A stretch of DNA of 38,252 nt from assembly GCA_938091995.1 (NCBI GenBank), contig CALKNZ010000003.1, positions 1 to 38,252 of the forward strand. Reading direction: 5' to 3'. The position numbers and the translations under genes are program-made. Of this stretch, positions 1,820-5,064 are shown piece by piece (positions within the stretch are counted from its first letter, which is position 1; each line of letters begins with the position of its first letter). Under the pieces are notes generated by a model that saw nothing but the letters and a program-made list of their open reading frames with translations, searched no databases and was not told the DNA's origin. The stretch comes from an uncultured Luminiphilus sp. GTDB lineage: Bacteria > Pseudomonadota > Gammaproteobacteria > Pseudomonadales > Halieaceae.

Positions 1820-3271
1820 TTAGTATCGAGCGTCAGATCTCAGCTTTTGAATGTATTGGGTGACGTCGGCTTTCACCTCGGGGGCGAACAGGTACAGGGC
1901 GATCAAATTCGGTATGGCAATCACAAAAATCATGGCATCTGAGAAATCGAGTACGGCTTTGAGCTGTAACATGCATCCGATCACAATGAAGCCGCAGAAT
2001 AAGAGCTGAAAGCACAGTTGACCCGCACGGCTTTCGCCAAATAAATAGGTCCAGCCTTTTAGCCCGTAGTAAGACCAGGCCAGCAGGCTGGAGAAAGCAA
2101 ACAATAAGGCCGCGACGGCGATGACATAGGGTGCGAAATCAAAATGCACCGCGAAAGCTGCCGATGTCAGCTCAATACCAGCGACTTCGGTACCCATGAG
2201 GCCGTTGGGAATGGCGCTGGTGAGAATGACCAACGAGCTCAAGCTAAGAATAATCACCGTATCGATGAAGGGTTCTAACAGTGCGGTAATACCCTCAGAT
2301 GCGGGTTCATCGGTTTGAACCGCCGAGTGGGCAATAGATGCCGATCCCAGTCCCGCCTCATTAGAAAATAAGGCCCGCTGAAACCCGATCACCATGGCAC
2401 CGAGCGCACCGCCGGTTGCCCCCTCACGTGTAAACGCACCTTGCATAACCGCTTGTAGGGCCCCTGGGATATGTTCAGCACTCAAACCGATCACGATCAG
2501 AGCGCTAATAATGTAGAGACTTGCCATAAATGGCACGAGCACTACGGTGACTTTAGCAATAGAGCGAATGCCGCCAATAACCACCAGTGCAACAACAATG
2601 GCGAGTGCCAAACCGAAAAACCAACCGCGATCACTAAGCCAGCTAGCATCCCCTCCGGTGATCACCAGGAACTGTGTGTAGGCTTGATTGGCTTGGAACA
2701 TATTGCCAATACCAAACCCCGCGATAACCAGGGCGAGGGCATAAAAACAGCCCATAAAACGGCCCAGTCCTGGCCACTGTCTGTGCTGAAACCAGTGCTC
2801 AAGATAGTACATGGGGCCCCCCGAGACACTGCCATCGGGATTGTGCCGTCGGTATTTCACGCCCAGTGTACATTCCACCAGTTTGGTGGACATCGATAAA
2901 ACCCCTGCGATCAGCAACCAAAAGGCGGCTCCCGGCCCGCCCAAGCTTATTGCAACGGCCACCCCGCCAATGTTACCAACGCCTACCGTACCTGATACCG
3001 CTGTCGCGACAGCCTTAAAGTGGCTGATCTCGCCTTTTGCTTCCGGGTCACTGAAATCGCCGCGCACGTGGCGCAGGGCGAGCCACAGTGCTCTAAAGTT
3101 GATAAAACGCAAGTACACGGTGAAATACACGGCTGCGGCTGCAAGCCATAAGACAATGAGGGGCAGCTCGTTATCACCTATGGGAACGGCATAGAAAACA
3201 AAACCGGACACTGCAGAAGCAACGGGGGCGAGAAGTGCTTCTACCGTTGCGTCAATCCCTACATCAGCCAT
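1820..3271 (-). CDS. AGCS-family sodium:alanine/glycine symporter
   Basis: A 483-residue inner-membrane carrier of the alanine-or-glycine:cation symporter family, importing small neutral amino acids with Na+. The family signature GVGNIGGVAVAISLGGPGA is present near residues 95-115, followed by the conserved GGPMYYLE and FSNEAGLGSASIAHSAV segments. Around ten or more hydrophobic helices are evident. Length matches the family (about 450-530). The ATG has AGGGAAAA a few bases upstream on the minus strand. The gene is convergent with the dioxygenase, and the porin gene lies upstream on the same strand, closed by its own terminator, so the symporter probably has a separate promoter. Exact substrate (Ala, Gly, Gln) is not determined. 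Confidence 0.93.
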   Translation of the reverse strand: MADVGIDATVEALLAPVASAVSGFVFYAVPIGDNELPLIVLWLAAAAVYFTVYLRFINFRALWLALRHVRGDFSDPEAKGEISHFKAVATAVSGTVGVGNIGGVAVAISLGGPGAAFWLLIAGVLSMSTKLVECTLGVKYRRHNPDGSVSGGPMYYLEHWFQHRQWPGLGRFMGCFYALALVIAGFGIGNMFQANQAYTQFLVITGGDASWLSDRGWFFGLALAIVVALVVIGGIRSIAKVTVVLVPFMASLYIISALIVIGLSAEHIPGALQAVMQGAFTREGATGGALGAMVIGFQRALFSNEAGLGSASIAHSAVQTDEPASEGITALLEPFIDTVIILSLSSLVILTSAIPNGLMGTEVAGIELTSAAFAVHFDFAPYVIAVAALLFAFSSLLAWSYYGLKGWTYLFGESRAGQLCFQLLFCGFIVIGCMLQLKAVLDFSDAMIFVIAIPNLIALYLFAPEVKADVTQYIQKLRSDARY

Positions 3272-3507
3272 TGAAATTTTCCCTAATCTGCAGCGTCGAG
3301 GTTCGCCTCTACCGCAGGAATTTGCAAGGGTATAAACGGGAGTCTGGGGTCAACCCATGCAAACGGATTAGCGTTGGCACAGCGATTCGACGAAGTCACC
3401 GAGGTAATAAGAGTTATTGAGTCACAGAAAAACTCAAACCACCCTCGAACAGGCCGTTAAAGCGCTCGTTTGGCATAGCACGAAAACTACAAGGCCAAAC
3501 TTGAGGC

Positions 3508-3534
3508 AAAAAAAAGCCCGCTCAGAAGCGGGCT
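3508..3534 (-). terminator. Rho-independent terminator of the porin gene
   Basis: Read on the minus strand: AGCCCGCT, loop TCTG, AGCGGGCT, then a run of eight T. The 8-bp GC-rich stem plus T-run starts 15 bases after the porin stop codon. It separates the porin transcript from the symporter gene. Confidence 0.9.
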
Positions 3535-3549
3535 CTGTTGCCGTCAGTC

Positions 3550-4290
3550 TTACATAGAGATGTCGACGGCATAGCTAATGACAAATTTGATTTGATCGTT
3601 GTCGTAGCCCCCATCAGCCGCTGGACCCTCGACATCGGTTGAGCTCATCATAAAGGCGAAGCCATCCTTAGCCACGCTGATATTGTAGTCATAGTAGCCC
3701 CCAGTGGTGCCATTAAAAGCTTCCGCAAAGTCACCATCGTGATAGCCCACATGAAGCCCTATGCCTACGCCGTTGCTGATTTCAAAGCCATAATCTGCTG
3801 AGACGTAATAAGTGCTTCCTGCATCAAAATCCTGCCCGGGACCTTCGTCAGCCTCGGTATTGGTGAGTACCCAGACGCCACCACTGAAACCACCGAATCC
3901 AACTTTGGCGTAGACCTCGCCGAAGTCAAATTCTGCTTCTTTGTCGTAGTTGTAGTAGAGGTAACCCACATCCCAACTGACCCCCCCTGTTTCAAACGCG
4001 AATCCTGCATAGAGGTCGTGTTCGTAGGAGTAAACGTCTGACGGACCGTAATTGACATTAGACACCCAGGTCCCGGCATAAAAACCACCATCTGATGCGT
4101 AATCGATGCCGCCTTGTACCGCCGAGTTGTTTTCTGTTTGAGTCAGGCCTCGCCAAATGTAGTTGTTGGTCACAGCCGCGTTGGCACTCCATTCACCAGC
4201 CTGAGTGGGTAGGGCGAGTGCACTCAGCGATAAAGCAGAAACGGCGGTCAGGGTTCTTACAGATGTACTGGGGGAAAACTTGAATTTCAT
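3550..4290 (-). CDS. TorF-family putative porin (Gcw_chp family)
   Basis: A 246-residue outer-membrane protein of the Gcw_chp/TorF putative porin family. The N-terminus is a signal peptide (MKFKF start, hydrophobic SALSLSALALPTQA, likely cleavage after TQA). The mature start, GEWSANAAVTNNYIWRGLTQ, and the alternating aromatic beta-strand segments (GGFYAGTWVSNVNYG, DVGYLYYNY, YYDYNISVAKDG) are typical of this beta-barrel family. The start is set at 4290 because GAGGA lies 7 bases upstream; a longer frame to 4365 adds a non-secretory N-terminus. The C-terminal IKFVISYAVDISM is weakly amphipathic. A sigma54-type promoter, IHF-like and NtrC-like sites lie upstream, so expression under nitrogen limitation is inferred. 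The solute transported is unknown. Confidence 0.88.
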   Translation of the reverse strand: MKFKFSPSTSVRTLTAVSALSLSALALPTQAGEWSANAAVTNNYIWRGLTQTENNSAVQGGIDYASDGGFYAGTWVSNVNYGPSDVYSYEHDLYAGFAFETGGVSWDVGYLYYNYDKEAEFDFGEVYAKVGFGGFSGGVWVLTNTEADEGPGQDFDAGSTYYVSADYGFEISNGVGIGLHVGYHDGDFAEAFNGTTGGYYDYNISVAKDGFAFMMSSTDVEGPAADGGYDNDQIKFVISYAVDISM

Positions 4291-4376
4291 AGTGGGTCCT
4301 CGTAAACAGCATGAAAGAGTGAAACTCTGTGTTCGTGGGAAGCTACATGCCTCCCTTTGCGGCACACTCTGCAGTT

Positions 4377-4392
4377 AGCATGGACCTTGCCA
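4377..4392 (-). promoter_or_regulatory. Predicted sigma54 (RpoN) promoter for the porin gene
   Basis: On the minus strand the sequence is TGGCAAGGTCCATGCT. This matches the -24/-12 consensus TGGCACG-N4-TTGCW, with exactly ten bases between the invariant GG and GC. The -12 GC lies about 88 bases before the porin ATG, leaving a leader of roughly 75 bases. An IHF-like site and an NtrC-like site lie upstream, which raises confidence. Confidence 0.65.
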
Positions 4393-4399
4393 ACTTTTT

Positions 4400-4412
4400 T
4401 AAGTCTCTGATA
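4400..4412 (-). promoter_or_regulatory. Predicted IHF binding site
   Basis: On the minus strand TATCAGAGACTTA fits WATCARNNNNTTR at every position. It lies just upstream of the -24 element in an AT-rich stretch, the usual place for IHF to bend DNA between an enhancer and a sigma54 promoter. IHF consensus matches occur by chance in AT-rich DNA, so the context carries much of the weight. Confidence 0.5.
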
Positions 4413-4490
4413 AATATACATAAACCGAGTTTTTTTAAGTGGTTTAGCCGGGCAAGACGGCTGCCTTCTAGCGCTCTTTTAGGGCGGGGC

Positions 4491-4507
4491 TGCACCAAAA
4501 TTGAGCA
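4491..4507. promoter_or_regulatory. Predicted NtrC (GlnG) enhancer site
   Basis: TGCACCAAAATTGAGCA agrees at 15 of 17 positions with the enterobacterial NtrC consensus TGCACCWWWWTGGTGCA. Its centre is about 130 bases upstream of the inferred sigma54 transcription start, within the usual enhancer range. No convincing second site was found at the typical 32-bp offset. This 387-bp gap (4291-4677) between the porin and the secreted-protein gene holds no convincing gene. Confidence 0.55.
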
Positions 4508-4677
4508 TCAATGCTGCCCCAAGAATGAGCCTTGCGCTGCTATTTTGAGTAGCGTGTCGCTGGTTGGGGTAGAGGTTGGCGATAAGAGGGTGGCGATTGA
4601 GACGAAAGAGAAGACTAAACCGCGAGTCTGTGCGTAACAGCAAAAAATATACACAGATCTCATTAGGGAGAAATCAA

Positions 4678-5064
4678 TTGAAGCGCGTTATTTTGGGTCT
4701 ACTTTTTACCTGTTCAGCTAGTGCGGTGATCGCAGAGATAGATTGTCAGGCCGTTGTGGCAGCAACGTTGGATGAGCTGGCTCTAGGAGCTCCGTCAGGG
4801 TGGACAGATACCGATGCTGACTTGGCGAGATCTGCGGCGGGATCGGCATGCTTAAAAGCGGCATCGGGACGGTATGGCGATGACCTTACGGTGGAATCTA
4901 TTGGCGTCTCATCTGATACTCCGGGAGCAACGAACGCTAGTGGCAATGCGGTAGAGAACCAAAATGATCCAGAGGGCGAAGAGACGGGTGGATTCCGGAT
5001 TAAGCCGATGACGGGTTCGCCAACCCAAAAACCTTATGAGCGCGCGAGATCAGTCGACAACTAA
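4678..5064 (+). CDS. Small secreted protein of unknown function
   Basis: No family recognised. A TTG start at 4678 is chosen because AGGGAG lies 7 bases upstream and it begins directly with a clean signal peptide (MKRVILGLLFTCSASAVIA, cleavage likely before EIDC). The longer frame back to an ATG at 4576 would add a basic, non-secretory extension. The mature protein, about 109 residues, has two Cys (in EIDCQAV and GSACLKA) that could form a disulfide, an Ala-rich helical first half, and a low-complexity Asn/Glu/Gly/Pro second half that looks disordered. It is transcribed away from the porin and shares the regulatory gap at 4291-4677. Periplasmic location is inferred; function unknown. Confidence 0.6.
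   Translation: MKRVILGLLFTCSASAVIAEIDCQAVVAATLDELALGAPSGWTDTDADLARSAAGSACLKAASGRYGDDLTVESIGVSSDTPGATNASGNAVENQNDPEGEETGGFRIKPMTGSPTQKPYERARSVDN

Follow-up and report, generated by a model that had tools for sequence, protein, structure and literature searches.

A predicted NtrC-IHF-sigma54 control region upstream of a stand-alone torF gene in Luminiphilus, with counterparts at TorF loci across Gammaproteobacteria

We investigated the region upstream of torF, a gene for an outer-membrane protein of the TorF/Gcw_chp family, in a 38,252-nt stretch of DNA from an uncultured Luminiphilus sp. (hereafter, the window, meaning this whole stretch). Positions 4507-4377, read on the minus strand, very probably constitute a sigma54 promoter with an NtrC enhancer and an IHF site, driving torF as a stand-alone gene that is induced under nitrogen limitation. 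The evidence consists of the sites themselves, their conservation, the helical phasing of their spacing, the linkage of torF to glnK in related genomes, and the presence of the regulator genes. The mechanism is of a known kind, and what seems to be new is the class-wide link to TorF and the stand-alone form found here.

An earlier sequence-only reading had proposed three motifs in the right order, strand and spacing on the minus strand, and all three were located at the proposed places (Table 1) using general motif consensuses and sigma54 weights. The proposed full match to the IHF consensus was recovered at every specified position, and the 15/17 given for the NtrC site, a count that includes the middle bases too, corresponds to 12 of 14 specified positions, with a perfect right half-site and a degenerate left half-site. 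Taking the C of the GC as -12, transcription would start at about 4366, placing the centre of the NtrC site near -133 (the earlier reading gave about 130 bases upstream of the inferred start) and the centre of the IHF site at about -40, not far from where the polymerase binds. Enhancers for NtrC commonly come in pairs, and no second NtrC site was identified in the torF control region of the window; this, the weak left half-site and the position of the IHF site speak somewhat against the reading.

Table 1. Coordinates of the torF locus in the window and of a Shewanella gene detected among the control genes
Feature	Position	Strand	Details
NtrC-type enhancer site TGCTCAATTTTGGTGCA	4507-4491	minus	12/14 specified positions of TGCACYA-N3-TRGTGCA
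IHF-type site TATCAGAGACTTA	4412-4400	minus	9/9 specified positions of WATCAR-N4-TTR
sigma54 -24/-12 promoter element TTGGCAAGGTCCATGCT	4393-4377	minus	GG-N10-GC present
Inferred transcription start	4366	minus	12 bases past the -12 C; 76-nt leader
torF, TorF/Gcw_chp family outer-membrane protein, 246 aa	3550-4290	minus	ATG at 4290
Likely intrinsic terminator after torF	3536-3513	minus	10-pair stem, 6 G-C, then T run
AGCS amino-acid symporter gene	1820-3271	minus	TIGR00835, PF01235; beyond the likely terminator
Divergent gene, small exported protein	4678-5064	plus	shares intergenic region with torF
Shewanella control gene with NtrC + sigma54 pair	L103:7153-8131, L104:7180-8158, L107:2756-3734	minus	

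The chance level of each motif was assessed with 2000 mononucleotide shuffles of the 330 bp upstream of the torF ATG, which gave p values of 0.001 for the sigma54 element, 0.0035 for the NtrC site and 0.008 for the IHF site. Across both strands of the 38 kb, no sigma54 site other than that of torF reaches 14 bits, and another 12/14 NtrC match lies at 2874-2890, within agcS. Searching the genome (2.88 Mb, 80.75% complete, with the window on contig C3) for the composite GCNC-N6-GGTGC-N90..120-TTGG-N10-GC yielded three matches, against none for the reversed pattern: one at torF, one in the glnK leader, relying there on a second TTGG..GC rather than on the best -24/-12 element, and one within a coding frame on C38. 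The -24/-12 element alone is not decisive, because TGGCA-N7-TGCW occurs 88 times in the genome compared with 33 times for the reversed pattern. IHF matches on their own turn up frequently in DNA this AT-rich (mean shuffle p 0.26).

The control region is conserved within the genus. Among 36 other Luminiphilus genomes (54-100% complete), the TorF is similar to that of the window in 15 (A type, 67-98% identity) and more distant in another 15 (B type, 34-41%), with no TorF found in 6 at E<=1e-10; the best TorF among named genomes has 97% protein identity, and the nearest named relatives belong to Luminiphilus/Halieaceae. GG-N10-GC precedes torF in all 16 Luminiphilus A-type loci, window included, and in all 9 B-type loci fetched from the 15 B-type genomes, at a distance of about 103-155 bp from the start of the match, and the NtrC-type site of the window has aligned counterparts in relatives. 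For counting, a pair required a sigma54 element scoring 9 or higher and an NtrC match of at least 11/14, with 60-170 bp between them, thresholds that were fixed after a first look at the data. Such pairs occur in 17 of 29 relatives (8/15 A-type, 8/9 genus B-type, 1/5 others), with the sigma54 element detected in 26 and the NtrC site in 19. The sequence-only reading had named a lack of conservation in close relatives as grounds for abandoning it; this comparison was run, and conservation was found in A-type and B-type loci alike.

Conservation extends well beyond the genus. In the best 80 of 577 confirmed TorF loci from named genomes, the pair was detected at 56, the sigma54 element at 67 and the NtrC site at 63. 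Control genes of the same 80 loci, excluding torF, glnK and amtB, yielded the pair in 4 of 447 cases (sigma54 alone in 40, NtrC alone in 34), and in 4 of 248 when restricted to controls with an intergenic upstream region (200 bp mostly without long frames). Three of these four control pairs belong to one Shewanella gene. A class-wide sample, chosen by family score and not by likeness to the window (30 loci from the 143 of 274 genomes having the family), contained the pair at 24 loci. Many Shewanella TorF loci carry the pair as well. At these thresholds, the pair was missed at 24/80, 12/29 and 6/30 loci in the named, relative and class-wide sets, respectively, in several cases because the best NtrC match reached 10/14, and in others (L093, L100, L112, L130, L139 and L149, among others) because no sigma54 element was seen. 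These counts are not independent, as the sequences are related and the sets overlap, the 80 named loci with the 29 relatives, and L008 and L074 look like one contig; in 16 of the 80 named loci the beginning of the match stood in for the gene start, no start codon having been found there or further upstream, and the frame of one locus (L091) is short.

The Shewanella gene among the controls lies near torF and reads as a membrane protein, with its NtrC and sigma54 sites 87-88 bp apart; it is possibly another NtrC target.

The spacing of the two sites has a period near that of the DNA helix. The NtrC-sigma54 distances of 66 non-identical pairs cluster at 79-80, 88-91, 97-101, 108-112, 123-125 and 132-133 bp, with further values at 67, 69, 103-104, 113-114, 118, 144 and 152, the window itself, at 114, lying at the edge of the 108-112 cluster. 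Their best period is 10.85 bp, with R=0.54, a value that none of 1000 uniform draws reached; counting each distance once gives R=0.49, reached in 1 of 2000 draws, and a period of about 10.8 bp is expected if the contacts lie on one face of the helix. The IHF site has preferred positions: among 72 regions, 28 have their best match in minus orientation, 23-26 bp ahead of the sigma54 element, and another 12, including the type seen in the window, have it in plus orientation at 12-14 bp, making 40 regions with a match at either preferred position, compared with a mean of 0.36 per bin and a maximum of 3 in 300 shuffles. Most A-type Halieaceae loci that have the pair share the same IHF position. Because the IHF bins were picked after seeing the data and the sequences share history, the spacing and IHF counts are not independent tests.

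The proteins that would act on this region are encoded in the same genome: RpoN (PF00309, above cut-off), NtrC (732.7 bits against a curated cut-off of 558.6) and IHF alpha (161 against 120.25 bits; the search covered the alpha family). The genome also supplies an internal standard, a glnK-amtB-glnK operon preceded by a 13/14 NtrC site with a sigma54 element 92 bp downstream, as well as a TGGCA-N7-TGCA sigma54 element about 100 bp upstream of the start of a frame that we read by eye as glnA. In this operon, called by PF00909 for amtB and by eye for glnK and ubiK, two P-II genes surround one ammonium transporter, divergent from ubiK (L151, on C38). No torF was seen adjoining it, the operon and the window lying on different contigs, and in this genome torF is not the first gene of a glnK-amtB operon.

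Elsewhere, torF often occupies that position. It immediately precedes glnK in 18 of the best 80 of 577 named-genome loci, each of which has an upstream ubiK on the opposite strand, not always adjoining torF. Every one of the 9 fetched B-type loci of the genus has torF directly followed by glnK, with a ubiK gene of opposite orientation on the upstream side, and glnK and/or amtB are present at 22 of the 30 class-wide loci. The order varies, with glnK and amtB preceding torF in L113 and L116, and amtB alone following it in L108. At the 15 other A-type loci of the genus, neither glnK nor amtB was seen in the up to 1.5 kb covered on each side; one of the 18 torF-glnK loci, that of Marinibactrum, encodes a TorF of the A type. 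In a tree of 136 of 140 proteins (four were left out for length), the A type falls in a clade of 38 with support 0.993 that includes one operonic member, and the nine B-type genes of the genus form one clade, all operonic. The ancestral arrangement was likely ubiK / torF-glnK-amtB, and the stand-alone torF would have retained the control of that operon, although the direction of the gene move is not proved. Tandem torF pairs were observed before glnK in L111, L134 and L115.

The genes flanking torF in the window do not appear to share its promoter. The downstream AGCS symporter had been taken to fit the nitrogen theme; this part of the earlier interpretation is weaker, because a likely terminator separates the two genes (two terminator-like sites in the region against a shuffle mean of 1.6) and the linkage is patchy. 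Of the 24 A-type Halieaceae loci besides the window, 7 have an AGCS gene next to torF, several of the 24 being short and two (L008/L074) seemingly one contig. We therefore rejected a shared torF-AGCS operon. The divergent gene encodes an exported protein of 128 aa with a TTG start, conserved cysteines and a C-terminal KPYERxR-like motif, had no match in Pfam or NCBIfam (searched as the longer frame 4576-5064), and adjoins torF at 23 of these 24 Halieaceae loci, the exception (L077) having little upstream DNA. A sigma54 promoter for this gene was likewise rejected, as the best candidate sites reached 10.1 in the window and between 1.6 and 9.3 across 23 relatives, with no element conserved.

The torF product scores 83.7 bits against PF09694 (cut-off 24) and 133.4 against TIGR02001 (cut-off 47.15); Pfam lists Gcw_chp as a protein of unknown function. 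An AlphaFold2 model built with 64 sequences (pLDDT 88.9) has 12 strands after an N-terminal signal-like helix. All 50 Foldseek matches listed are outer-membrane barrels: the intimin barrel ranks first by E-value, KdgM (4fqe) second with a TM score of 0.68 by target and 0.49 by query length, and NanC (2wjq; 0.58 and 0.50) and Tsx lower down. KdgM and NanC are porins with small barrels like the TorF model, at about 9% identity to TorF, but the fold match is only a general one because intimin ranks first. No solved sequence homologue was found in the PDB below E=0.15, the value of the best match. The model thus supports TorF being an outer-membrane barrel, without pointing to a particular substrate. 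It agrees in family and strand number with the PVP family of TCDB (1.B.71), under which the available portion of a published compilation places Gcw-chp with 12 strands, Gcw chp also appearing under 1.B.4; that portion names neither a regulator nor a substrate (PMC4827864).

The architecture has precedents. The E. coli glnHp2 promoter is an NtrC-sigma54 promoter with IHF. The Xylella glnA promoter resembles that of torF in combining NtrC, IHF and -24/-12 elements at a single promoter, but the target of the torF promoter is an outer-membrane barrel, it has one NtrC site versus two putative ones, and its IHF site lies near -24 (PMC3224663). The NtrC core has been described as glnA, amtB, glnBK and ntrBC (PMC5343134). 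Two induced genes are of interest. In Herbaspirillum seropedicae, the nlmA-glnK-amtB operon is NtrC-dependent, with an amtB fusion rising 21-fold (PMC3023670); like many torF genes, nlmA is a membrane-protein gene placed first in a glnK-amtB operon and strongly upregulated in nitrogen limitation, but the torF gene of the window stands alone, and the authors place NlmA most probably in the periplasm (PMC3023670). In OM43 cells without nitrogen and vitamins, the largest transcript change, a rise of 1,900-fold, was that of a hypothetical gene (NB46_00251) putatively cotranscribed with amtB and glnK (PMC5120137). Their gene positions suggest that nlmA and the OM43 gene may both encode TorF, in which case the nitrogen induction of the family would already have been measured without being recognized as a family trait. 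Among the papers examined, we found no tie between TorF, Gcw_chp or TIGR02001 and nitrogen control, a result that does not establish absence from print, and there was none in the available text of PMC2820453, PMC12316311 or PMC13303613, the last of which names TorF in a protein gel. "Torf" in a Pseudomonas paper (PMC8264665) is an author's name.

Relatives of TorF are also encoded on viral contigs. Among 190 IMG/VR stretches, 156 encode one, with up to 73% identity to the window protein. We studied the best 80 of these 156 (L188-L267); in the 79 whose upstream DNA extended to 150 bp or more (L198 was left out), none had the NtrC-sigma54 pair, 6 had the sigma54 element, 2 the NtrC site, none glnK and 2 amtB; two torF frames in the set are broken, with guessed starts. 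Genes of phage type occur near torF on the contigs examined: L188 has a lysozyme, a helicase and a DNA-binding protein, L192 a DNA ligase, L197 genes for baseplate and virion structural proteins, and L208 one for tail-fibre assembly. In a tree with 78 of the 80, the viral sequences form clades of 63, 7, 4, 2 and 2, the clade of 7 adjoining Pseudohongiella (parent support 0.776) and that of 4 adjoining a sequence from Luminiphilus (parent support 0.045); the final clade of 2, with a GC of 0.67, may be host DNA. As several viral clades are present, repeated capture of torF is likely but not settled. Three queries returned no TorF match among GenBank phages at E 1e-5. A viral porin beside amtB, described in PMC8115048, is OmpL, thought to derive from Bacteroidetes, and was set aside as not TorF.

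In L188, an alternative oxidase (PF01786), a short IscU-like frame and torF are consecutive (L188:3994-5732) near the phage lysozyme; the IscU-like frame was read by eye and has no match in Pfam or PHROGs. In PLSDB, TorF relatives were found on 19 plasmid records, one of them above 80% query coverage, with hosts including Marinobacter, Halomonas, Azoarcus and Pseudoalteromonas.

Several other explanations can be weighed against these data. The motifs could be chance matches in an AT-rich leader, with torF transcribed from an ordinary housekeeping promoter; the abundance of the -24/-12 pattern across the genome and the frequency of chance IHF matches lend this some plausibility, but it is contradicted by the conservation, the distance periodicity and the controls, and no sigma70-type site was found in 3200-4750 (shuffle mean 1.4), so that we consider it exceedingly improbable. 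A true sigma54 promoter might alternatively answer to an enhancer-binding protein other than NtrC, in which case the signal would not be nitrogen. The ntrC model has 26 matches in the genome, and apart from NtrC itself 7 of them span most of the ATPase region, and the left half of the NtrC site in the window is weak; however, the sites read as the NtrC palindrome across the family and torF precedes glnK in many loci, making another activator quite improbable.

The name of the family raises a different issue, namely whether TorF is a respiratory TMAO porin for which nitrogen control is secondary. Shewanella SO4694 (torF) is indeed listed as a TMAO reductase system outer membrane porin (PMC5955497), and, as TMAO contains nitrogen, the two roles could both hold. 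Yet torF is linked to glnK in many loci, and the NtrC-sigma54 pair occurs at many TorF loci of Shewanella itself, and we regard a primarily respiratory role as unlikely. Judged from sequence comparison, NtrC-driven induction of torF in nitrogen limitation is the best reading.

Under NtrC-driven induction, low glutamine would lead NtrB to phosphorylate NtrC, and NtrC-P, bound about 133 bp upstream, would contact the waiting RNA polymerase-sigma54 through a loop assisted by IHF, its ATPase then opening the torF promoter. The TorF barrel would be produced along with GlnK-AmtB and glutamine synthetase, in this Luminiphilus lineage from a relocated torF carrying its own copy of the same control. 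Most likely, TorF would widen outer-membrane passage for scarce nitrogen solutes.

More tentatively, and with rather less than even confidence, we propose that TorF serves the gammaproteobacterial NtrC regulon as a dedicated gate in the outer membrane and supplies the missing partner of GlnK-AmtB there, its control being kept even outside the operon, and that marine phages took torF repeatedly, freed of this control, such that infected cells keep importing nitrogen. The NtrC-IHF-sigma54 region and the glnK linkage lead to a testable hypothesis for TorF, that of an outer-membrane channel made under nitrogen shortage, which bears on nitrogen competition among marine bacteria such as Luminiphilus. 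If the phage copies of torF are confirmed, outer-membrane nitrogen uptake would join the capabilities that cells acquire from the viruses infecting them.
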